From Myxococcus sp. RHSTA-1-4 (GTDB lineage: Bacteria; Myxococcota; Myxococcia; Myxococcales; Myxococcaceae): 64,000 bases of DNA. This document shows, piece by piece, positions 11,348 to 59,037 of this stretch. How positions within the stretch are numbered: the stretch's first letter is position 1; each line of letters starts with the position of its first letter. Below the pieces are notes generated by a model, which worked only from the letters and a program-made list of their open reading frames with translations, did not search any database and was not told the DNA's origin. The position numbers and the translations under genes are program-made. The stretch covers positions 62,001 to 126,000 of the forward strand of contig NZ_JAIQDG010000015.1 in NCBI RefSeq assembly GCF_020037125.1, in the 5' to 3' direction.

Positions 11348-12331
11348 TCAGCCCCACAGCTCGCGAGGGGGCCAGTACATCGTGCTCCCCTCGAAGCGGA
11401 TGCCGGGCTCCCTGTCGCGGGCGAGCAGCAGCGGCCCATCCAGGTCCACCACCGTGGCCTCCTGGGCCACGAGCATCGCGGGCGCCATGGACAGCGAGGT
11501 GGCCACCATGCAGCCCACCATGAGCTGGAGCCCCTCCGCCCGGGCGGCCCCGGCCAGGGCCAGCGCCTCCGTCAGCCCCCCGGTCTTGTCCAGCTTGATG
11601 TTGATGGCGTCGTACCGGCCCAGGAGCGCCGCGAGCCCATGCCGGTCATGCGCGGACTCGTCGGCGCAGACGGGCACGGACCGCCGCATTCCCAGCAGCG
11701 CCCCGTCATTCCCCGCGGGCAGGGGCTGCTCCACCATCACCACGCCCAGCTCCGCGCAGGTGTCGAGCAGCGCGGGCAGCGCCTCCGGCGTCCACCCCTC
11801 GTTGGCATCCACGATGAGGCGGCTGGCCGGCGCACCCGCGCGGATGGCCCGCAGCCGCTCGATGTCCTCCACACCGCGTCCGAGCTTCACCTTGAGCAGC
11901 GGCCGGTGCGCGGCCTTCTCGGCGGCCTGCCGCATCGCCTCGGTGGTGTCGAGGCTCAGCGTGTACGCCGTGACGAGCGGCCTCGGCTCGGTCATCCCCA
12001 GCAGCTTCCAGAGGGGCTGACCGCTCCGCTTCGCCTCCAAATCCCACAGCGCGCAGTCCAGCGCGTTGCGAGCGGCCCTCGGCGCGAGCACCTCCGAGAT
12101 GCCGTCACGCTCCAGTCCCGCCTCGATGCGCGGACGCGCGGCCTCCAGCGCGGCGATGACGCCTTCGAGCGTCTCGCCATAACGCGCGTAGGGGACGCAC
12201 TCGCCGCGCCCCACCACGCCGTCCTCCTCCAGCGTGACGACCACGACCTCGGCCGACGTCTTCGAGCCCCGGGAGATGGTGAACTTCCCGGCGATGGGCC
12301 AGCTCTCGTGCCTGACGGTGAGCCTGCGCAT
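11348..12331 (-). CDS. dgcA: N-acetyl-D-glutamate racemase / dipeptide-epimerase family enzyme (DgcA)
   Basis: 327 residues of the enolase superfamily, muconate-lactonizing subgroup. A capping domain comes first (GRGECVPYARYGET), then a barrel with the KVKLGR lysine motif, metal-binding positions in IVDANEGW, VEQPLP and ADESAHD, and the second catalytic lysine in NIKLDKTGGL. This is the L-Ala-D/L-Glu epimerase pattern. Because the gene lies 6 bp downstream of a DgcN homologue, the better call is DgcA, which interconverts N-acetyl-D-glutamate and N-acetyl-L-glutamate in the DgcN-DgcA route of D-glutamate catabolism. Murein-peptide epimerase activity (AE-epimerase) is the alternative. Confidence 0.85.
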   Translation of the reverse strand: MRRLTVRHESWPIAGKFTISRGSKTSAEVVVVTLEEDGVVGRGECVPYARYGETLEGVIAALEAARPRIEAGLERDGISEVLAPRAARNALDCALWDLEAKRSGQPLWKLLGMTEPRPLVTAYTLSLDTTEAMRQAAEKAAHRPLLKVKLGRGVEDIERLRAIRAGAPASRLIVDANEGWTPEALPALLDTCAELGVVMVEQPLPAGNDGALLGMRRSVPVCADESAHDRHGLAALLGRYDAINIKLDKTGGLTEALALAGAARAEGLQLMVGCMVATSLSMAPAMLVAQEATVVDLDGPLLLARDREPGIRFEGSTMYWPPRELWG

Positions 12332-12337
12332 GGGCGC

Positions 12338-13354
12338 CTACCTGCCGCCGTGGAAGCGGCGCACCAGCTCGTCGACGAGGGGGCCGACGCCGGTGCGGAT
12401 GGGGTCCACGCAGGGCAGCCCGTGCTCGCGGCCCGTGCGGGCCAGCAGCTCCAGGGCCTCCTTCTCCTCCAGGTGCTCGGTGTTGATGGCCAGGCCCGTG
12501 CACTGGATGCGCGGGTGGGTGAGCTGGCCTTCGAGAATCGTGCGGTCGATGACGGCCTGGATGGAGGGGAGGGGATGCTGGACGCCGCGCATCTTCGTGC
12601 GCGTGGGCTCGTGGCAGACGATGAAGGCGTCCGGCTGCGCGCCGTGGAGCAGCCCCAGGGTGACGCCCGCGAAGGAGGGGTGGAAGAGCGAGCCCTGGCC
12701 TTCCACCAGGTCCCAGTGGTCGGCGTCGTTGGCGGGGGTGAGCCACTCGGCGGCGCCGGCGACGAAGTCCGACACCACGGCGTCGATGGCCACACCGCGT
12801 CCGGAGATGAAGATGCCCGTCTGGCCGGTGGCGCGGAAGTCCGCCTTGAGGCCGCGGGCGCGCATCTCCTTCTCCAGCGCGAGCACCGTGTACTTCTTCC
12901 CCACCGAGCAGTCCGTGCCCACCGTCAGCAGCCGCAGGCCCGGGCGCTTCGTGCCCTTGCCGGTGGCGAAGTCCATGTCGGGGATGCGCACGTCGTGCAG
13001 CTTGCGGCCGCTGCGCGCGGCGGCCGCGGCGATGGCGGGGAAGGAGGACAGCCGCTTGTGCAGGCCCGTGGCCACGTCCAGGCCCGCGTCGAGCGCCTCC
13101 ACCAGCTTCCCAATCCAGTGCTCCGGCAGCACGCCGCCCGCGTTGGCCACGCCCACGATGAGCGTCTTCGCGCCCTTCGCCTTCGCCTGGGCGATGTCCA
13201 GGTCCGGCAGCCCGCAGTCGGCCTTGCAGCCCGGCAGCCGGAGCTGCCCGACGCACCAGTCGGGCCGCCAGTCGACGATGCCGTGCGCCGTCTTCGCGGC
13301 GAGCTGGTCGGGAACGTCACCCAGGAACAGCAGGTAGGGCTTTTCGATCTCCAC
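12338..13354 (-). CDS. dgcN: D-glutamate N-acetyltransferase DgcN (DUF1611 family)
   Basis: 338 residues from GTG 13354, chosen because GGAGG lies 5 bases upstream and it yields the family-like N-terminus VEIEKPYLLFLGDVPDQ. Frame upstream to 13405 has no similarity. The N-terminal half contains GVANAGGVLPEHW. The C-terminal half has a P-loop-like GTDCSVGKK, followed by DLVEGQGSLFHPSFAGVT, typical of the DUF1611/COG3367 family. In characterised systems DgcN acetylates D-glutamate and DgcA epimerises the product to N-acetyl-L-glutamate. The two genes here are adjacent in the same order of action and probably form one operon. Transfer of this role to myxobacteria is by family and context. Confidence 0.85.
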   Translation of the reverse strand: MEIEKPYLLFLGDVPDQLAAKTAHGIVDWRPDWCVGQLRLPGCKADCGLPDLDIAQAKAKGAKTLIVGVANAGGVLPEHWIGKLVEALDAGLDVATGLHKRLSSFPAIAAAAARSGRKLHDVRIPDMDFATGKGTKRPGLRLLTVGTDCSVGKKYTVLALEKEMRARGLKADFRATGQTGIFISGRGVAIDAVVSDFVAGAAEWLTPANDADHWDLVEGQGSLFHPSFAGVTLGLLHGAQPDAFIVCHEPTRTKMRGVQHPLPSIQAVIDRTILEGQLTHPRIQCTGLAINTEHLEEKEALELLARTGREHGLPCVDPIRTGVGPLVDELVRRFHGGR

Positions 13355-13432
13355 CGTGACCTCCGCGCCCCACGTCCCGGGGCAGTGGGCCGGGCGTTTC
13401 AGCACGCTCGCGGGGGCCGGGCAAGGTCGCGA

Positions 13433-43417: not shown

Positions 43418-43572
43418 GAGGGCCGCAGCCTAGCGCTCCTCCGCGGCGGCGCTAAGGCCAGGTTGCAGGCCGCCTGCTCGAAGTCCGCCGGCGGGTACGC
43501 GTGCGCGGCTCGATGCCCTCATTCCAAACGAACCCGTATGCCTCCCCGGGCCGTGCTAAGACAGGCAGGTTC

Positions 43573-44898
43573 ATGGAAGGCCGCCTGCTGCTGAAGAACT
43601 GCGCCGTGTTCCGCGCGGATGGTCGGGTCCGCACCGGCATGGCCGTGGTGGTGGAGGGGAACACCATCCGCCGCGTGGCGCCGGATGCCCAGGTGCCCGT
43701 GTTGCCGGGTGACTGGGAGGTGGCGTGCCGGGGCCGGCTCGTCGCGCCGGGGCTGGTGGACTGCCACTCGCACCTCGTCAATGGCCAGCTACTGCCGCCC
43801 AGCGGGAACTTCCTCCTGCAGTCTCCACGCGAGCGGCTGGAACGGATGATGCGGGTGGCCCGGCTCCTGACCGACGAGGACGTGGAGGCCCTCACCCGCT
43901 TCGGCGCGGCCCGCGCCCTGCGCGACGGCGTCACCCTGGTGGTGGACCACCTGTCCTGCCAGGACGTGGCCGGCGGGCTCGCCGCCCAGGCCCGCGCCGC
44001 CGAGAGCGTGGGCCTGCGGCTGGTGGTCAGCCACTCCACCCACAGCCTGGACGGAGCCGCCCAGGCGGAGACGTGGCTGGAGGCCAACGCCGACTTCACC
44101 CGCCGCCACCGCGAGCACCCCCTGGTGCGCGGAGCGCTGGGCTTCCATGCCTCGTACACCTGCGACCACGCGCTGCTCACCCGGGTGTCCCGGCTGAGCC
44201 GGGAGCTGGACGCGCCCACCGTCTTCCACCTCGCGGAGAGCGAGGACGACCTCACCACCACCTACGCCCGTCACAACCAGCGCGTGGTGCCCCGGCTGGA
44301 CGCGCTGGGGCTGCTCGGCCCGCGTGCCATCGCCGGTTATGCGCGCGCGCTGGACAGCTCCGAGGCGGCGCGCCTGGAGGAGAGCGGCACCTTCGTCGCG
44401 CTCGCGGCCCGGGGCGTGCGCACGCTCGAGCGCGGCGTGGACCCCATGGAGGCCGTGCTGTCCCGCATCCATCTGCTGGGCCTGGGCACGGGCGGCCACG
44501 GGACGCTCCAGGACGAGCTGCTCGCCGCGACGGTGGGCGTGCTGCGCATCTCCCGCGCCGGCCGCCTGCCGGACGTGGACGGCACCCTGGCCCATCTGCT
44601 CATCAACGGCCCGGCGGAGCTGTGCACCCGGCTGTTCGGCCTGCCCTCGGGCAACGTGGAGGAGGGCAGCATCGCGGACCTCGTCGTCTACGACACCGTG
44701 CCCCCGGCGGACCCGGAGACGGGCTACTCGCCGCACCTGCTCGGGCAGCTCTCCCGCTCGCCGGTGTCATGGACGGTGGTCAACGGCCGCGTCTGCGTGC
44801 GCGAGGGGCAGTTGCTGGGCCAGGACTACGTGGAGCTGTCCCGCGCCGCGACGGATGCGCTCCACCGCGTGTGGACCCGCGCACGGCTGGGGAGCTGA
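43573..44898 (+). CDS. Amidohydrolase-superfamily protein (SsnA/cytosine-deaminase-like) lacking two metal-site residues
   Basis: 441 residues from ATG 43573. The N- and C-terminal beta-sandwich and central barrel are recognisable: APGLVDCHSHL (His65, His67), GFHASYTCDHALL, VFHLAES (His219) and the C-terminal GSIADLVVYDTVPP. The fourth-ligand His, normally in a GH-C/A block, is Tyr256 (AIAGYARAL), and the essential Asp of the GTDG block is Gly307 (GLGTGGHG). The VAHNPRSN block usual in SsnA relatives reads VALAARGVRTLE. It therefore looks like an SsnA-type amidohydrolase whose metal centre has decayed or been rebuilt. It overlaps no neighbour, and the next gene starts 11 bp after its stop. 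Confidence 0.82.
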   Translation: MEGRLLLKNCAVFRADGRVRTGMAVVVEGNTIRRVAPDAQVPVLPGDWEVACRGRLVAPGLVDCHSHLVNGQLLPPSGNFLLQSPRERLERMMRVARLLTDEDVEALTRFGAARALRDGVTLVVDHLSCQDVAGGLAAQARAAESVGLRLVVSHSTHSLDGAAQAETWLEANADFTRRHREHPLVRGALGFHASYTCDHALLTRVSRLSRELDAPTVFHLAESEDDLTTTYARHNQRVVPRLDALGLLGPRAIAGYARALDSSEAARLEESGTFVALAARGVRTLERGVDPMEAVLSRIHLLGLGTGGHGTLQDELLAATVGVLRISRAGRLPDVDGTLAHLLINGPAELCTRLFGLPSGNVEEGSIADLVVYDTVPPADPETGYSPHLLGQLSRSPVSWTVVNGRVCVREGQLLGQDYVELSRAATDALHRVWTRARLGS

Positions 44899-50706: not shown

Positions 50707-51774
50707 CTACGGGTAGCAGGCCGCCTGGCGCAGGGCGGTGTCCTCGGGCAGGCCGAGGGCCACGTTGAAGTTCTGCACGGCCTGGCCGGCCATGCCCTTC
50801 ACCAGGTTGTCCAGCGCGGCCATGACGGCCACCGAGCGGCCCTTGGTGGCGACGGAGATGTCACAGAAGTTGCTGCCCGCCACCGCGGCGATGCGCGGCG
50901 TGCCCTCGACGATGCGGACGAACTTCGAGCCCTCGTAGTAGCGGCGGTACTTCTCCGTCAGCGACGCCGTCACCACCGCGCCGCCGTGCTCCGGCCACTC
51001 GAACTGCACGGTGGCGAAGATGCCGCGCACCATGGGCGCCGAGTGCGGCACGAAGGCCAGCCGGTGCCGCTGCGCGCCGTGCGCCACCAGCATGACCTCC
51101 ACCTCGGCCTCGTGCTGGTGCTCCAGCGGCTTGTACGCCCGGAAGTCATGCGCGCGCGTGGGGTGGTGCGTGCCCTCGCCCGGCAGCGAGCCGGAGCCGG
51201 ACGAGCCCGTCACGCCCGTCACCGCCAGCAGCCCCAGCCCCGGCGTGGAGGCGATGGGCAAGAGCGCGAGCTGCACCGCGGTGGCGAAGCACCCCGGGTT
51301 GGCGATGCGCTTCGCCTTCGCGACGGCGTCGCGCTTCCACTCGGTGAGGCCGTAGGTGAAGGTGCCCAGCAGCTCCGGGGAGGGGTGGGGCCGGCCGTAG
51401 GCGCCCGCGTAGCGGCCCGGGTGGTCCAGCCGGAAGTCGGAGGACAGGTCCACCAGCAGCATGCGCTCGGCGATGCCGGCCTCCGCCCACTTCTTCTCCA
51501 GGCTGGAGAATTGCGCGGCCAGCTCGCCGTGCCCCAGCGCGCTGAACACCACCGGCTGCTCCGAGTCCGCCAGCCAGCGCCAGTCCGGCTCCGCCTCGAA
51601 GCGGCCCTCCACCAGCCCGCGCAGGTGCGGGTGCACCTTGTGGATGGGCGCGCCCGCGTGGTGCCGTGACACCACGCGGATGTTCCCCACGGCCGGGTGG
51701 CCGGAGAGGATGCGCAGCAGCTCGCCTCCGCCGAAACCGGAGGCTCCCAGGATGTAGATGTTCGCCCGCGTCAT
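50707..51774 (-). CDS. argC: N-acyl-gamma-glutamyl-phosphate reductase ArgC
   Basis: 355 residues. The NADP-binding N-terminus is IYILGASGFGGGELLRIL. The catalytic Cys162 lies in IANPGCFATAVQLALLP, and GSSGSG and HSAPMVRGIFATV blocks complete the ArgC pattern. It reduces N-acyl-glutamyl phosphate to the semialdehyde, step three of arginine synthesis. It overlaps the upstream P-loop gene by 4 bp (ATGA), so its translation is coupled to that gene. Confidence 0.95.
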   Translation of the reverse strand: MTRANIYILGASGFGGGELLRILSGHPAVGNIRVVSRHHAGAPIHKVHPHLRGLVEGRFEAEPDWRWLADSEQPVVFSALGHGELAAQFSSLEKKWAEAGIAERMLLVDLSSDFRLDHPGRYAGAYGRPHPSPELLGTFTYGLTEWKRDAVAKAKRIANPGCFATAVQLALLPIASTPGLGLLAVTGVTGSSGSGSLPGEGTHHPTRAHDFRAYKPLEHQHEAEVEVMLVAHGAQRHRLAFVPHSAPMVRGIFATVQFEWPEHGGAVVTASLTEKYRRYYEGSKFVRIVEGTPRIAAVAGSNFCDISVATKGRSVAVMAALDNLVKGMAGQAVQNFNVALGLPEDTALRQAACYP

Positions 51775-52832
51775 GACTTCCTCCCCGCGCCCAGCTTGGG
51801 CGCGAGCTTCTCCAGGATGAGCCCACCCAGCGCCGCCGCGTTCGCGCGCGCGTTGCGGGCGGGAATCCCCACCACCTGCTCCACGAAGCGCACGCCCACC
51901 GCGTTGTCCGTGGCCGGCCCGGCCACCATGTCCACGTCGATGCCGTACGCCTCTCTCAGGTGCCGCACGCCGCCGGACGCGCCCACCGGGTCGTTCGCGC
52001 ACAGCACCCACGCGCCCGCCAGCGCCTTCAGCTCCGGGTCCGCCAGGATGCCCTGCACCCCGTACTCGCCCATGATGCCGTCACCCGTCTCCGCGACGAT
52101 GACGTCCACGTTCTCCGCCGCCAGCTCGGAGAACAGCACCCGCGCCACGGTCGCGCCCGTGCGGGAGCCCGTGCAGACGACGCCCGCGTCCGTGAAGTCC
52201 ATCACCACGTCCGCGCCGGCGTCCTGCATGGCCAGCGTGTCCCGCATCAGCGACACGCCCGTCAGCTTCGCCCCGCCCACGCGGTAGCCCGCCTGCGCCA
52301 GCTTGCGCACCATGGCGCTGGCCGCGAACGTCTTTCCCGCGTTCATGCAGGTGCCCACCACGTAGACCACCGGGCACTTCACCGGAATGGGCTGGCCCTT
52401 CAGCGAGCCCGAGCTGATGTGCGCCGGCTGCCCGGTGCGCGACATCAGCTCCGGGAACTCCAGCACCTGGCCCAGCACCTCCGCCTCGAAGGGCTGGCCC
52501 ACGCCCGGGTTGTGGGACGTGCACTTGCCGATGACGCCGCCCATGTTCAGCACGTGCAGGCGCTCGCCCACGGACACGGACTCCGGCACCACGCCCTCGT
52601 AGCCGTGCAGCGCGTTGCGGTGCCCCAGGGCGCCCACGACGATGTCGCCCGCGTGCAGCGTGACGAGCCGCCCGTGCGGGTCCTCGAGCTGGTTGTAGAC
52701 GCTCTTCTCCCCGTGGATGCGCACGGCCACCACCGCGCCCTCCTCGGCCTTCACCTCATCCGCCAGGTGCACCGTGCGGCCCAGGCCGAGGTTGCGCGTG
52801 ACGCTGCCCACCTTGTCGACGAAGACCTTCAT
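51771..52832 (-). CDS. DUF1611-like P-loop protein within the arginine cluster
   Basis: 353 residues, preceded by GGGAGG. The N-terminal ~150 residues form a beta-rich domain with VTLHAGDIVVGALGHRNALHGYEG and LHVLNMGGVIGKC. The C-terminal ~200 residues are a P-loop domain: VVYVVGTCMNAGKTF, GGAKLTGVSLMRD, DFTDAGVV, VIVAETGDGIMGEYG. The spacing of these blocks parallels DgcN (GTDCSVGKK, RATGQTGIF, DLVEGQGSLFHP), so the two appear related within the DUF1611/dethiobiotin-synthetase-like superfamily. It starts 1 bp after the argG stop and overlaps argC by 4 bp, so it belongs to the pathway by context. Because argA and argJ are missing here, an acyl-glutamate-forming role is an attractive hypothesis. 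Confidence 0.75.
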   Translation of the reverse strand: MKVFVDKVGSVTRNLGLGRTVHLADEVKAEEGAVVAVRIHGEKSVYNQLEDPHGRLVTLHAGDIVVGALGHRNALHGYEGVVPESVSVGERLHVLNMGGVIGKCTSHNPGVGQPFEAEVLGQVLEFPELMSRTGQPAHISSGSLKGQPIPVKCPVVYVVGTCMNAGKTFAASAMVRKLAQAGYRVGGAKLTGVSLMRDTLAMQDAGADVVMDFTDAGVVCTGSRTGATVARVLFSELAAENVDVIVAETGDGIMGEYGVQGILADPELKALAGAWVLCANDPVGASGGVRHLREAYGIDVDMVAGPATDNAVGVRFVEQVVGIPARNARANAAALGGLILEKLAPKLGAGRKS

Positions 52833-52833
52833 T

Positions 52834-54030
52834 TCAACCTCCCTTGGCCCGGTGCGAGAGCATCTGCGCCACGCCGTACAGCTTGGCGAAACCCGCCGCT
52901 TCTGAACCCGTCCACAGCACGTTGGCTTCTCCGTACGTCGCCACCTTGGCGTCCATCAGCGAGTGTGGCGAGCGCACGCCCTCCACCACCAGCGTCCGCG
53001 GGTGAAGCACCAGCCGCACGTCACCCGTCACCCGCTCCTGCGACGAGGTGAGGAACGCCTCCAGGTCCTTCACCAGCGGGTCGAAGAAGTGGCCCTCGTG
53101 CAGCAGCGAGCCGTAGAGGTTGCCCACCGTCTCCTTCCAGAATAGCTGCTTGCCGGACAGCACCAGCTTCTCCAGCTCGCGGTGCGAGGTGACGAGCAGG
53201 TGAGCGGCCGGCGCCTCGAAGCCCACCCGGCCCTTGATGCCGAGAATCGTGTCGCCCAGGTGCACGCCCCGGCCGATGCCGTACGTGCGCCCCACCGCGT
53301 TGAGCGTCTCCACCAGCTTCACGGGGCCCATGGCCTCGCCGTCCAGCGCGGACGGGACGCCCTGCGTGAAGGACACCGTCAGCGTGCGGGGCTTCAGGTC
53401 GGTGGGAATCTCCCCGCCGGGGAAGGCCGCCTCGGGCAGCGCGCTCCACGAGTCCAGCGTCTCGCGGCCGCCCACCGAGGTGCCCCACATGCCCTCGTTG
53501 ACGGAGTAGGAGCCCAGCTTCGGAGGCATGTGGATGCCGCGCTCGGCCAGGAAGGACAGCTCCTGCTGCCGGCTCAGGCCCAGCGTGCGGATGGGCGTCA
53601 GCAACTCCAGGTCCGGCGCCAGCGAGCGGAAGGCCACGTCGAAGCGCACCTGGTCGTTGCCCGCGCCGGTGCTGCCGTGGGCAATCGCCTGGACGCCCAG
53701 CTCGCGCGCCACGCGCACCACCTCCACCGCCTGGCAGGCCCGCTCCGCGGAGACGCTCAGGGGGTAGACCTGCCCACGCAGCACGTTGCCGGCGATGAGG
53801 TAGCGCAGGTAGCCCTGGAAGAGGGTGTCGCGCGCGTCCACCGTCTTGTGCGCCACCGCGCCCAGCTTCACCGACAGCGCCTCGATGTTCGCGAGCTGCT
53901 CGGCCGGGAAGCCGCCGGTGTCCACCGTGACGGTCGTCACGGCGTAGCCCTGCTCGCGCAGGTAGACGGTGCAGAAAGCGGTATCGAGTCCGCCGGAGAA
54001 GGCCAGCACCACGTTCTTCTTGTTGCTCAT
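52834..54030 (-). CDS. argG: Argininosuccinate synthase
   Basis: 398 residues from ATG 54030, preceded by GAGGAGTGACGAC. The ATP-pyrophosphatase motif is VLAFSGGLDTAFC. HGSTGAGNDQVRF and SYSVNEGMWG complete the ArgG pattern. It condenses citrulline and aspartate with ATP to argininosuccinate. It sits between argH and the P-loop gene in the minus-strand operon. Confidence 0.95.
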   Translation of the reverse strand: MSNKKNVVLAFSGGLDTAFCTVYLREQGYAVTTVTVDTGGFPAEQLANIEALSVKLGAVAHKTVDARDTLFQGYLRYLIAGNVLRGQVYPLSVSAERACQAVEVVRVARELGVQAIAHGSTGAGNDQVRFDVAFRSLAPDLELLTPIRTLGLSRQQELSFLAERGIHMPPKLGSYSVNEGMWGTSVGGRETLDSWSALPEAAFPGGEIPTDLKPRTLTVSFTQGVPSALDGEAMGPVKLVETLNAVGRTYGIGRGVHLGDTILGIKGRVGFEAPAAHLLVTSHRELEKLVLSGKQLFWKETVGNLYGSLLHEGHFFDPLVKDLEAFLTSSQERVTGDVRLVLHPRTLVVEGVRSPHSLMDAKVATYGEANVLWTGSEAAGFAKLYGVAQMLSHRAKGG

Positions 54031-54056
54031 GTCGTCACTCCTCACGGGGAAGGGGT

Positions 54057-55406
54057 TCACAGCGACCACACGCGCTCGGCGGCGGAGGCCATCGAGCGGT
54101 GCGTCTCATCGAGCCAGGCGCGCGCGGCGGCCAGCTCCTCCCGGGCCTGGGGCAGGCCCAGGTTGCCGGCGCCACCCAGGTGGGTGGCCGTCAGTGCGCC
54201 GCGGTCCGGGCGGAAGGTGCCGTCCGCGATTTCGCGGCCCACCTGCCGGTACGCGTCGCGGAAGGGCAGCCCCTGGGCCACCAGCGCGTAGGCATGGTGG
54301 GCGGCATACAGCGTGTCGTCGCTGGCGCGCGCCGCCGCGTCCGCCTGAATCTGGAGCGCGGGCACCAGCCGGGCGAGCACCACCAGCAGCTCCTTCATGG
54401 AGGACAGCGCCGCCAGGGTGGGGCGCTTCAGGAGCTGGAAGTCGCGGTGGTAGCTGGAGGGCAGGCCGCCGGCCACCGCCTCCACCTGGTGCGCGAGGCC
54501 CCGCAGCTCGCGGCACCGGCCGCGCGCCAGCTCCACCACGTCCGGGTTCTTCTTCTGCGGCATGATGGACGAGCCGGTGGTGAACGCGTCCGGCAGCTTC
54601 AGGAAGCCGAACTCGTCCATGCTGTAGAGCTGCACGTCCCACAGCCACTTCTCCAGCGTGCCCGCCACCGAGCACGACCACCCCAGCACCGCCGCCTCGT
54701 GCCGGCCCCGGCCGTTCTGCACGTCGATGGGGCTGCGCTGCACCCGGCTGAAGCCGAGCAGCTTCGCCACGTACTCGCGGTCGATGGGCAGCGGCACGCC
54801 GAAGCCCGCCGCCGCGCCCAGCGGGCACCTGTCCAGCCGGGCCCACACGCCGCGCAGCGCCTCCAGCTCCTCCAGCAGCCCCTCCGCGAAGGCCATGCCC
54901 CACAGGCCGAAGGTGGACGGCATGGCCCGCCGCAGGTGGGTGTAGCCGGGCAGCGCCACGTCCGCGTGCGCCTGCGCGAAGTCCAGGAACGTCCCGGCCA
55001 GCTCCACCGCGCGCGCGCCCAGCGACAGCACCTCCTCGCGCAAGAGCAGGCGCACGGCGAGCTGCACCTGGTCATTGCGCGAGCGCGCCAGATGGATGCG
55101 CTTGCCCGGCTCGCCCACGCGCTCCACCAGCGCCGCCTCCAGCGCGGTGTGCCCGTCCTCCTGTTCGGGGCGGATGGTGAAGGCGCCGGCGCGTGCCTCG
55201 TCGTGCAGCACCTTCAGCGCGGACACCAGCGCCCGCGCCTCCTCGGCGCGCAGCAGGCCCACGTGCGCCAGCATCCGCGCGTGCGCGGCGCTGCCGAGCG
55301 CGTCATGCGGCGCCAGCGCCAGGTCCACCACCGGGTCGTCGCCCACCGTGAAACGGTGGATGACGGCGTCCAGCGGCGCGCCCTTGCCCCACAGGGTGTC
55401 AGCCAC
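54057..55406 (-). CDS. argH: Argininosuccinate lyase
   Basis: 449 residues of the fumarase/aspartase superfamily. The signature GSSIMPQKKNPD is intact and is preceded by RSRNDQVQLAVRL and LPGYTHLRRAMP. It splits argininosuccinate into arginine and fumarate. Its start overlaps the end of the upstream deacylase gene by 8 bp, evidence of one operon. Confidence 0.95.
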   Translation of the reverse strand: MADTLWGKGAPLDAVIHRFTVGDDPVVDLALAPHDALGSAAHARMLAHVGLLRAEEARALVSALKVLHDEARAGAFTIRPEQEDGHTALEAALVERVGEPGKRIHLARSRNDQVQLAVRLLLREEVLSLGARAVELAGTFLDFAQAHADVALPGYTHLRRAMPSTFGLWGMAFAEGLLEELEALRGVWARLDRCPLGAAAGFGVPLPIDREYVAKLLGFSRVQRSPIDVQNGRGRHEAAVLGWSCSVAGTLEKWLWDVQLYSMDEFGFLKLPDAFTTGSSIMPQKKNPDVVELARGRCRELRGLAHQVEAVAGGLPSSYHRDFQLLKRPTLAALSSMKELLVVLARLVPALQIQADAAARASDDTLYAAHHAYALVAQGLPFRDAYRQVGREIADGTFRPDRGALTATHLGGAGNLGLPQAREELAAARAWLDETHRSMASAAERVWSL

Positions 55407-56460
55407 GGGCCACCTCCTCGAAGTAGCCGCGCACCAGGCGCGTGTAGAAGGCGGCGCCGGCTTCCAGCTCCGCCCGGGTGAGGTACTCGTCCGCCTGATG
55501 GCTGCGCAGGGTGTCGCCGGGGCCCACCTTCACCGCCGGAAGGTCGCCCAGGAAGGCCCAGTCGGACGTGGTGCTGGAGCCCACCGGCTGCGCGCCCGCG
55601 GCGGCGATCGCCGCGCGGACGACGGGCTGGTTCGACGCCGTCGCCTTCGGCAGGTAGCGCGCGGAGTGCACGTGCACCTCGCTCTTCAGCGCCCCGGCCA
55701 CCTGCTTCGCCACCTCCGCGTGGTTCATGGCCGGCGTGGTGCGCAGGTCCACGAAGAACTCGCACTTGTCGGGCACCTGGTTTCGCGCCAGGCCGCCGGA
55801 AATCTGCGTCACCTGCGCCCGCGCCTCGCCCAGCAGCGGGTGGGACGGGAAGCGCAGCTCCGCCAGCACGGAGATGTCCACCGCCGCCATGTGGATGGCG
55901 TTCACCGAGGCATTGGTGTGCGCATGCGCCACGTGCCCGCTCTTCCCGTGCGCCGTGCAGCGCAAGAGCAGCATGCCCCGCTGCGCGGTGCAGGGCTTGA
56001 GGCTCGTGGGCTCACCCACGATGGCCGCGTCCAGCGGGCCCAGCTCGGACAGCATCGTTCCCAGTCCCTGGCCTCCCGTCTCTTCCTCGGCGGTGAAGGC
56101 GAAGACGACCTCGCCTCCGGTGGGGGCTCCTTCCTTCAAGAGGGACTGCGCGGCGAGGAGCATCCCCGTCACGCAGCCCTTGGCGTCGTTGCTGCCCAGG
56201 CCGTACAGCCGGTCCTCCCGCCACTCGGGCGCGTGGGGCTCGTACGTCCACCCGGCGCACGGCTTCACCGTGTCCAGGTGCGAGTTGACGAGCAGCCGGC
56301 GCGGCCCGCTCCCCACGGAGAACCACACGTTGTGGCCCTTCCGCTGGACGCGCGCGCCCCAGCCCTCGGCCCACCCGGACACGGTGTCCGCGATGCGGCC
56401 CTCGTCACCCGAAACGCTGGGGATGGCCACCAGCGCCTGGAGCAGCTCCGTCGCCTTCAT
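55399..56460 (-). CDS. argE: M20-family N-acyl-citrulline/N-acyl-ornithine deacylase (ArgE-like)
   Basis: 353 residues. The M20 metal site is visible: HLDTV (His61, Asp63), GSNDAKG (Asp92), AEEETGG (Glu125-127) and GEPTS. The C-terminal His ligand lies in LRSHQADEYLT. It is shorter than E. coli ArgE (~383). Because the neighbouring transcarbamylase makes N-acyl-citrulline, the deacylase should act on N-acyl-citrulline, as in Xanthomonas. It overlaps argB by 4 bp and argH by 8 bp. Confidence 0.9.
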   Translation of the reverse strand: MKATELLQALVAIPSVSGDEGRIADTVSGWAEGWGARVQRKGHNVWFSVGSGPRRLLVNSHLDTVKPCAGWTYEPHAPEWREDRLYGLGSNDAKGCVTGMLLAAQSLLKEGAPTGGEVVFAFTAEEETGGQGLGTMLSELGPLDAAIVGEPTSLKPCTAQRGMLLLRCTAHGKSGHVAHAHTNASVNAIHMAAVDISVLAELRFPSHPLLGEARAQVTQISGGLARNQVPDKCEFFVDLRTTPAMNHAEVAKQVAGALKSEVHVHSARYLPKATASNQPVVRAAIAAAGAQPVGSSTTSDWAFLGDLPAVKVGPGDTLRSHQADEYLTRAELEAGAAFYTRLVRGYFEEVARG

Positions 56461-57383
56461 CCCACGGCCCCGGACGGCTTCGGCGCGGCCTCGCGCACCA
56501 CCATGGTGCCGCTGCCCTCGTTGGTGAAGACCTCCTCCAGGAGCGCGTTGGGCGCCACGCCGCTGACGAGGTGCACGCTGCCCACTCCGCCCACCAGCGC
56601 GTGGCGGATGGCGTGCGCCTTGGGCCGCATGCCGCCGGAGATGACCCCGGTGTTCTCCATGGTGGCCAGGTCCGTCAGGTTCGCCAGCGTCACGAGCGAC
56701 GTCGGGTCGTTCACGTCCTTCAGCAGGCCCGGCACCTGGACGAGGAAGAAGAGCTTCTCGGCCGACAGCGCCACCGCGAGCGCCGCCGCCACCGTGTCCG
56801 CGTTGGTGTTGTACACGGCGCCGTCCACGCCGCCCGACAGGGGCGCCACCACCGGCACGTAGTCCGCCGAGCGCAGGTGCTCCACCACGCGCGTGTCCAC
56901 CGACTCGATGTCACCCACGAGGCCGTAGTCGACGAGCTTCCCCTCGGTGGAGCCGGGCTCGGTCACCATGACGGGGGGCCGCTTGCGCGCCTTGATGAGG
57001 CCCGCGTCCACGCCGCTCAGGCCCACCGCGGGCACGCCCGCCGCCTGGAGGTCCGCGAGCAGGTCCGTGTGCAGCTTGCCGGCGAGCACCATCTTCGCCG
57101 CGTCCAGAACCGGCGCGGAGGTGACACGGCGGCCCGCCACCTTCTCCACCGGCAGGTGGAGGGCGTCACAGAGGGTGTCCAGCTCCGGGCCGCCGCCGTG
57201 AACGACGATGGGGCGGATGGAGAAGGTCCACAGCAGGGCAATCTGCTCGCACGCGGAGCGGCGCAGCTTCGGCTCGCTCAGCATGGCACCGCCGAGCTTC
57301 ACGACGAACGTCTTGCGGCGGAACTGCTGCACGTAGCGCGCGGCGTGGCGGAGCGCGGCGTAGGGATCGGGCGACAGGGGCAC
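56457..57383 (-). CDS. argB: N-acyl-glutamate kinase ArgB
   Basis: 308 residues of the amino acid kinase family. Motifs: FVVKLGGAML, IVVHGGGPELD, VGLSGVDAGLI, YNTNADTVAAALA and GVISGGMRPK. It phosphorylates N-acyl-glutamate. The lack of the long N-terminal helix found in arginine-sensitive hexameric kinases is not clear-cut, since ~25 extra residues precede the core. It lies 36 bp downstream of the transcarbamylase and overlaps argE by 4 bp. Confidence 0.93.
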   Translation of the reverse strand: MPLSPDPYAALRHAARYVQQFRRKTFVVKLGGAMLSEPKLRRSACEQIALLWTFSIRPIVVHGGGPELDTLCDALHLPVEKVAGRRVTSAPVLDAAKMVLAGKLHTDLLADLQAAGVPAVGLSGVDAGLIKARKRPPVMVTEPGSTEGKLVDYGLVGDIESVDTRVVEHLRSADYVPVVAPLSGGVDGAVYNTNADTVAAALAVALSAEKLFFLVQVPGLLKDVNDPTSLVTLANLTDLATMENTGVISGGMRPKAHAIRHALVGGVGSVHLVSGVAPNALLEEVFTNEGSGTMVVREAAPKPSGAVG

Positions 57384-57419: not shown

Positions 57420-58433
57420 TCAGCGCGAGTGCGAGCGCATCCAGTGAAGGAGCGCGCGCTGGACGTGGTAGCGGTTGCCCGCCTCGTCCACGACGCGGCT
57501 GCTCGGGTGGTCCAGCACCTCGTCGGCCACCTCCACGTTGCGGCGAACCGGCAGGCAGTGGAGGAAGGCCGCGTCCTTGGCGGCGCGGGACATGGTGCGC
57601 AGCGTGGGCATCCACCCGGAGTAGGAGGCCAGCAGCGCGGTGACGTCGTTCGGAGAGAACGCCGCCGCGGCCGTCGGGCCCCACGACTTGGCGTACACCG
57701 CGCGGCTGCCGGCGAGCGCCTCGTCCTGGTCATGGGTGTAGGTGATGCTGCCGCCGGTGGCCTTCGCGTACGCCTCCGCCTCCGCCCGCACGGCGGGGTG
57801 CAGCTCGAAGCCGGGAGGGTGCGCCACGCGCACCTCGCAGCCGGCGGCGGCGGCGCTCAGGAGGAAGGAGTTGGGCACGGCCTTGGGCAGCGGCTTGATG
57901 TGCGGCGCCCAGGTGAGCGTCACCGGCAGCTTCTTCGTGGAGCCGAACGTCTCGCGCAGGGTGAGCACGTCCGCCAGGCCCTGGCAGGGGTGCTCGCGCG
58001 CGGACTCCATGCTGACCACCGGCACGGTGGCCCACTTGCGGAAGGCGTTGATGACGGGGTCGAGCTCGTCCTCCTCGTCGCCGCCGCCCTGCGAGAAGGT
58101 CCGCACGCCCAGCATGTCCACGAAGCGCGACAGGACGGGCGCCGCCTCCTTGAGGTGCTCGGCCCGGTCCGCGTTCATCACCGCGCCCTCGCGGTGCTCC
58201 AGCTTCCACACGCCCGCGCCCACGTCGAGGATGATGGCGTTGCCACCCCCGCGCAGCATGACGGCCTCGAACGAGGTGCGCGTGCGCAGCGAAGGGTTGA
58301 AGAACACCATCCCCAGGATGGTGCCCGGGAACAGCGGCTGCCCCGGCGCCTGCTGCTTCCACGCGGCCGCCTGCGCGAGCACCGCCTCGACGCCCTCGGG
58401 GCCGAGGTCCTTGATGTGGGTGACGTGCTTCAT
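57420..58433 (-). CDS. argF': N-acyl-L-ornithine transcarbamylase (ArgF', acetyl- or succinyl-ornithine type)
   Basis: 337 residues from ATG 58433. Carbamoyl-phosphate binding FFNPSLRTRTSFE and HPCQGLADVL are present. The acyl-ornithine-type features are present too: Trp76 in GVWKLE (equivalent of Trp77 of Xanthomonas AOTCase), LTWAPHIKPLPKAVPNS, and HCLPVRRNVEVADEVLD with EAGNRYHVQRAL, rather than the ornithine-type C-terminus. In ungapped comparison with the remembered Xanthomonas sequence, acetyl-specific Glu92 is replaced here by Ala91 (NADRAEH). Succinylornithine enzymes of Bacteroides have Pro there, and Ala at this site was reported to switch AOTCase to succinylornithine. Hence the substrate may be N-succinylornithine. 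First gene of the operon, divergent from argR. Confidence 0.9.
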   Translation of the reverse strand: MKHVTHIKDLGPEGVEAVLAQAAAWKQQAPGQPLFPGTILGMVFFNPSLRTRTSFEAVMLRGGGNAIILDVGAGVWKLEHREGAVMNADRAEHLKEAAPVLSRFVDMLGVRTFSQGGGDEEDELDPVINAFRKWATVPVVSMESAREHPCQGLADVLTLRETFGSTKKLPVTLTWAPHIKPLPKAVPNSFLLSAAAAGCEVRVAHPPGFELHPAVRAEAEAYAKATGGSITYTHDQDEALAGSRAVYAKSWGPTAAAAFSPNDVTALLASYSGWMPTLRTMSRAAKDAAFLHCLPVRRNVEVADEVLDHPSSRVVDEAGNRYHVQRALLHWMRSHSR

Positions 58434-58501: not shown

Positions 58502-58578
58502 TTTCAAAAGAGGCGCGGATATTATGCAGAAAGACGCAGCGCGCAAGCCTCTTATTGCGGAAATTTTTATGCAGGCGC

Positions 58579-58598
58579 TTGCGTGCATATTCACGCAA
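58579..58598. promoter_or_regulatory. ArgR-type palindrome near argR start
   Basis: TTGCGTG (58579-58585), CATATT, CACGCAA (58592-58598): perfect 7-bp arms in a 20-bp site, the same length as the other palindrome 97 bp away. It lies 17 bp before the argR start. Two sites in a divergent arg promoter suit looping by hexameric ArgR and autoregulation. Confidence 0.5.
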
Positions 58599-58614
58599 AT
58601 GCATGGTGCCCGGA

Positions 58615-59037
58615 ATGAACCTGGACGAGACCATCCTGCGGCTCATCACCGAGCGGGAGATCAGTGATCAGGCGGTACTTCAGGAGCTGCTGGAGGCGCA
58701 GGGGGAGGCGCCGAGTCAGTCCACGCTGTCGCGCCGGCTGAAGAAGCTGGGCGTGCAGAAGGTGGGGGGGCGCTACCAGCGCGTGGAGACGCCGCCGCCG
58801 GTGGCGCCCGCGCGGCCCTGGCTGAGGATCATCGAGGCGCCTCCCAGCCTGCTCGTGCTGAAGACGGCGCCCGGCTACGCGCAGGTGTTCGCGCTGGCGC
58901 TGGACCGCGAGCCGGACGTGCCCGGCCTGGCCGGCACCGTGGCGGGGGATGACACCATCTTCGTCGCGGTGACGGACCCCTCCCGCCTGCGCGAGGTGCG
59001 CGAGGTGGTGGAGGAGCTGATGTCGCGGGGGACGTGA
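58615..59037 (+). CDS. argR: Arginine repressor ArgR
   Basis: 140 residues from ATG 58615. The N-terminal winged helix is LDETILRLITEREISDQAVLQELLEAQG, followed by SQSTLSRRLKKLGVQKVGGRY. The C-terminal domain has LLVLKTAPGYAQVFALALD and AGDDTIFVAVTDPSR, which form the hexamer and arginine-binding site. It is divergent from the arginine operon and probably represses it, and itself, through the palindromes in the shared region. An alternative start four codons upstream (58603) is possible. No clear ribosome binding site is seen. Confidence 0.92.
   Translation: MNLDETILRLITEREISDQAVLQELLEAQGEAPSQSTLSRRLKKLGVQKVGGRYQRVETPPPVAPARPWLRIIEAPPSLLVLKTAPGYAQVFALALDREPDVPGLAGTVAGDDTIFVAVTDPSRLREVREVVEELMSRGT

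Follow-up and report, generated by a model that had tools for sequence, protein, structure and literature searches.

A P-loop protein of the Myxococcus arginine operon is a candidate N-acyl(succinyl)-L-glutamate-forming enzyme

Which protein acylates glutamate at the start of arginine synthesis in Myxococcus? Reconstructions of bacterial metabolism repeatedly come up short at the first arginine step, and Myxococcus is among the many bacteria without a recognizable enzyme for it. We analyzed a 64,000-nucleotide stretch of DNA from Myxococcus sp. RHSTA-1-4 (the window; all coordinates are positions in it) that carries an arginine operon and, within the operon, a gene here called X. The pathway can be taken as functional because M. 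xanthus DK1622 needs no arginine in defined medium and becomes an arginine auxotroph when its argE (MXAN_1012) is disrupted by an insertion (PMC5801462).

Gene X within the arginine operon

Pfam and NCBIfam annotation gives the operon order argF'-argB-argE-argH-argG-X-argC, with argR divergent (Table 1). X starts at 52832, leaving a 1-bp gap to the end of argG at 52834, and its stop codon shares ATGA with the argC start codon, a 4-bp overlap. The first-pass annotation had described this minus-strand ORF and its two tight junctions, together with an operon devoid of GNAT and ArgJ genes; all of this was borne out. The sole Pfam domain of ArgB is AA_kinase, with no NAGS domain. ArgE and DapE models score nearly equally, and all below their cut-offs, on the M20 deacylase. 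X is present in a single copy in the 11.2-Mb genome. It has no match to PF01960 (ArgJ) or to any acetyltransferase family in Pfam or NCBIfam, and its structural model is of the P-loop and not the GNAT type.

Table 1. Arginine genes of the window and the Walker A motif of X
Feature	Position	Strand	Basis
argC, N-acyl-gamma-glutamyl-phosphate reductase	50707..51774	-	TIGR01850, 323 bits
X, 353 aa, candidate N-acyl(succinyl)-L-glutamate-forming enzyme	51771..52832	-	ORF
X Walker A motif, G160-TCMNAGKT-168	52329..52355	-	GTCM[NS][AS]GKT in 42/42 homologues
argG, argininosuccinate synthase	52834..54069	-	TIGR00032
argH, argininosuccinate lyase, without fused acetyltransferase domain	54057..55406	-	TIGR00838; Pfam
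argE-like M20 deacylase, candidate N-succinylcitrulline desuccinylase	55399..56460	-	M20 family
argB, N-acylglutamate kinase	56457..57383	-	TIGR00761
argF', knotted carbamoyltransferase, N-succinylornithine-type residues Ala/Pro/Glu at 92/185/302 (X. campestris AOTCase numbering)	57420..58433	-	Alignment to AOTCase structures
argR, divergent arginine repressor	58555..59037	+	PF02863, PF01316

A more complete operon leaves X as the only unexplained gene. At locus L224, the order is argR, argG, X, argC, argD, argF', argB, argE, argH; here argC is followed by a gene for a class III aminotransferase whose nearest subfamily is ArgD. Every pathway step except glutamate acylation is assigned there, and X is the sole gene left over. 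The same argD insertion is found at locus L223.

Distribution of X, known first-step enzymes, and ArgF' types

Relatives of X, collected by a profile search of GTDB species genomes, are 56-96% identical. They occur in Myxococcaceae, Geothrix and other Holophagaceae, Lysobacterales and other gammaproteobacterial assemblies, and also in Armatimonadota (Fimbriimonas), Verrucomicrobiota, a planctomycete, and Eisenbacteria. The 80 fetched loci come from at least six phyla; every one of them has X inside an arginine operon, and the ArgB proteins of these operons are kinase only. Five more loci from Lysobacterales bring the total to 85, of which 82 have argG to the left of X and 83 have argC to the right; the exceptions are ends of the fetched or matched stretch, plus one argB-X-argC arrangement. 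The same operon is present in M. xanthus AM003 (L152), with an X that is 92% identical. Thus, the association of X with the arginine operon is far beyond chance. None of the papers retrieved in a literature search concerns X. A record labeled Comamonas sp. KCTC 72670 (L148; BNCN01000006.1) contains a Myxococcus-type arginine operon, 87-94% identical, and is probably mislabeled.

We then compared X with ArgJ in 100 myxobacterial genomes around the window's own. X is present in 33 of them (every one of the 27 from the genus, plus six more from the family), none of which has ArgJ; among the 67 genomes without X, 55 have ArgJ (Fisher p ~1e-16, relatedness ignored). Five tested genomes that lack both X and ArgJ lack argC too. 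ArgJ is likewise absent from all 45 X-positive genomes tested in several phyla. Some X-negative myxobacteria (L132-L142, L146) have a second argC-argB pair, with argC ~39-46% identical; this pair is separate from the ArgJ locus and was set aside.

A similar pattern is seen with NAGS-K in Lysobacterales. The NAGS-K domain is found in 64/72 X-negative genomes and in none of the nine X-positive ones, one of which has a partial X (p ~1e-7, ignoring relatedness among genomes that are not phylogenetically independent). The eight genomes that lack both X and NAGS-K also lack a full-length AOTCase-like argF': argF' matches nothing in four (G152, G180, G187, G214), only ordinary or distant OTC-like proteins in three (G163, G194, G207), and a partial AOTCase-like fragment of 38-39% identity in one (G170). 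ArgF' is 53-61% identical to that of the window in X-positive Lysobacterales vs 36-41% in X-negative ones, which suggests that the whole arginine operon has probably been exchanged and, therefore, that X and NAGS-K were not swapped as single genes. Together, mutual exclusion and operon exchange argue that X comes together with a pathway that has no need of the earlier first enzyme.

The carbamoyltransferase offers a clue to the acyl group. According to PMC4581275, three residues tell the two types apart: the acetylornithine type has Glu92, Asn185, and Lys302, and the succinylornithine type has A/S/P/V/Q, P, and V/I/E at these sites. The best PDB match of the window ArgF' is the AOTCase entry 3l02, in which Ala replaces Glu at the first site. 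The residues of the window ArgF', Ala, Pro, and Glu, are those expected of an N-succinylornithine transcarbamylase under this rule, which corrects the signature of argF' from acetylornithine to succinylornithine type. By the same rule, 70 of 74 X-positive loci are of the succinyl type at all three sites, the four exceptions having Thr at 92 (three loci) or Ala at 185 (one), while all 20 X-negative Lysobacterales have the AOTCase-type Glu, Asn, and Lys. Thus, X tracks the succinyl pathway.

Fold and sequence family of X

AlphaFold2 modeled X with a mean pLDDT of 91 as two predicted domains, a beta-rich N-terminal domain (residues ~1-150) and a SIMIBI P-loop domain (~150-350). Residues 1-149 modeled alone had a pLDDT of 84, and a fold search of the PDB with the N-terminal domain gave no convincing match (best Foldseek E, 0.74; best Z, 3.3), which does not amount to proof of a new fold. 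In the model, the P-loop domain resembles those of the DUF1611 structures 2g0t, 2obn, and 7xrj (Z 14.7-16.8 over 174-181 residues); among these, 2g0t scores Z 16.8 (rmsd 2.7, 174 residues), and DgcN itself, 7xrj, scores Z 14.7 (rmsd 3.3, 181 residues). Within this range (Z 15-16) are also the amidoligase domain of CTP synthase (Z 16.3) and BioD (Z 15.6), which differ from X in having no X-like N-terminal beta domain and in acting on other substrates in another pathway. PDB sequence searches with X or its profile gave weak matches only, the best of them P-loop matches to BioD.

Across an alignment of 42 homologues, GTCM..GKT, K189, and E248 are invariant, and K167 and K189 of X align with K15 and K37 of BioD. 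DUF1611 proteins, by contrast, have GKK or GKR at the P-loop and no lysine at the place of K189. In its P-loop residues, X is therefore closer to ATP-dependent ligases of the BioD kind than to DgcN, and the predicted combination of a SIMIBI fold with an intact Walker A motif fits a SIMIBI P-loop ligase. Given this pattern, an ATP-dependent ligase is a serious alternative to CoA-dependent transfer.

The first-pass annotation had recognized in X the order of conserved blocks found in DgcN and had argued from it to function. This order was borne out in part, for the P-loop stretch. Pfam DUF1611_C (PF07755) covers only 44 residues of X at the P-loop (E=2.6e-4), and its 20.9 bits fall short of the cut-off of 25, although a few X orthologues reach 25-27 bits in a genome scan. 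The Rossmann-like DUF1611_N (PF17396) is absent from X in Pfam, whereas the window's canonical DgcN has it. Profile comparison of X with DgcN aligned ~30-60 residues around the P-loop at 0.4-14% probability, and there is no full-length similarity. Judged by sequence, X is outside the DUF1611/DgcN family. The analogy is a weak argument, since the N-terminal domains differ and the fold of DgcN is no closer than that of CTP synthase or dethiobiotin synthetase.

A proposed first step and its alternatives

X is a candidate for the acyl-glutamate-forming enzyme because it is strictly linked to the operon across phyla, it and ArgJ or NAGS-K exclude each other, and it is what remains once all other genes of a complete operon are assigned. 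On these grounds, rather than on the DgcN analogy, the original proposal can be kept, with the acyl group shifted, probably, to succinyl, for which the first-pass annotation had left room. We consider it likely that X acylates glutamate in an arginine pathway of the succinyl type; we infer its activity, its acyl group, and its energy source. X would convert L-glutamate to N-succinyl-L-glutamate, using a P-loop (SIMIBI) domain joined to the N-terminal beta domain and no GNAT fold. ArgB would phosphorylate this product, ArgC would reduce and ArgD transaminate the successive intermediates, ArgF' would carbamoylate N-succinylornithine, ArgE would desuccinylate the product, and the final steps to arginine would fall to ArgG and ArgH. 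The energy could come from ATP, with succinate as the donor as in BioD-type ligases, or from succinyl-CoA. X may work by ATP-dependent ligation instead of transferring an acyl group from CoA; the more specific idea that it attaches free succinate to the L-glutamate amino group via succinyl-phosphate, replacing the known CoA-dependent N-acyltransferases, is a tentative one that we hold with less than even confidence.

Two known systems offer comparisons. In the succinyl pathway of Bacteroidetes, the reaction predicted for X is carried out by the GNAT protein ArgA2/BT3761, likewise with arginine operons and a succinylornithine-type carbamoyltransferase (PMC7311316, PMC9026213), but X, with a P-loop domain plus an unrelated N-terminal domain, is built differently. 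NAGS-K of Xanthomonadales, a fused NAGS and kinase, also provides the first enzyme in arginine operons that have the same order; however, its GNAT-type domain is fused to ArgB, it belongs to the acetyl pathway, and it was never found alongside X.

That ArgA2 is a GNAT encoded within the arginine operon (PMC9026213) lends some weight to a different view, in which glutamate is acylated by an ArgA2-like or other short NAGS of the GNAT family, encoded elsewhere, while X serves the pathway as regulator, chaperone, or channeling partner. The genome of the window has 64 GNAT-like matches (4-24 in six other X-positive genomes). MobB and HypB, which belong to the same P-loop class as X, are accessory proteins. 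Yet a search of this genome for argA and argJ, which the first-pass annotation had called for, found no ArgJ, and none of 62 scanned GNAT proteins reached the NAGS model cut-off; none is encoded in the arginine operon. A conserved GNAT was also rejected as a hidden synthase: those common to the window genome, a Geothrix, and a Fimbriimonas, identified as reciprocal best hits, match RimI or general GNAT models only. So strict a linkage across phyla would not be expected of a dispensable regulator, and we regard an accessory role for X as unlikely.

It is about equally doubtful that X forms N-acetyl-L-glutamate from acetyl-CoA, as the analogy with DgcN would have it. NCBIfam does name argF' N-acetylornithine carbamoyltransferase, but this model is blind to the three diagnostic residues, which, by the rule above, are of the succinyl type at every site in the window and at nearly all X-positive loci. 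The P-loop fold common to X and 7xrj, titled N-acetyltransferase in the PDB and from a family with a reported glutamate N-acetyltransferase, is consistent with acetyl transfer, as is the finding that, among the matches listed, only DUF1611-type structures align well with the model upstream of residue 147; set against these are the missing DUF1611_N and a score below the DUF1611 cut-off. The shared fold with 2g0t, 2obn, and 7xrj would also suit a D-glutamate N-acetyltransferase of the DgcN family that sits in the arginine operon by chance. This we find very improbable: the window has a separate, canonical DUF1611/DgcN gene beside a DgcA-like epimerase gene, and X departs from the family in its N-terminal domain, in GKT vs GKK/GKR, and at K189.

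If X is the succinylating enzyme, it fills the gap for Myxococcus, Corallococcus, Geothrix, and uncultured members of several phyla, and its carriers would no longer be called arginine auxotrophs. Glutamate would then be N-acylated by a non-GNAT enzyme, and succinylated arginine synthesis would reach well beyond Bacteroidetes. It would also become easy to correct the annotation of many carbamoyltransferases labeled acetyl specific.

Several minor observations concern the window and distant relatives of X. The canonical DUF1611/DgcN gene (12338-13405, minus strand) is followed by the enolase-superfamily DgcA-like epimerase gene (11348-12331, minus strand), and the two (11348-13405) are likely a D-glutamate catabolism pair. 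A tRNA-Glu (ctc) called by ARAGORN at 44181-44270 on the minus strand lies antisense inside an amidohydrolase-like ORF (43501-44898, plus strand) and is probably a false call. Remote paralogues of X in Lysobacterales, ~31-33% identical and below Pfam cut-offs, adjoin an M20 deacylase gene (L240, L241, L242), in L240 with a flavin reductase gene nearby, and possibly belong to another N-acyl pathway. A second group of paralogues in the same order (L245, L246) adjoins CydDC-like ABC exporter genes.
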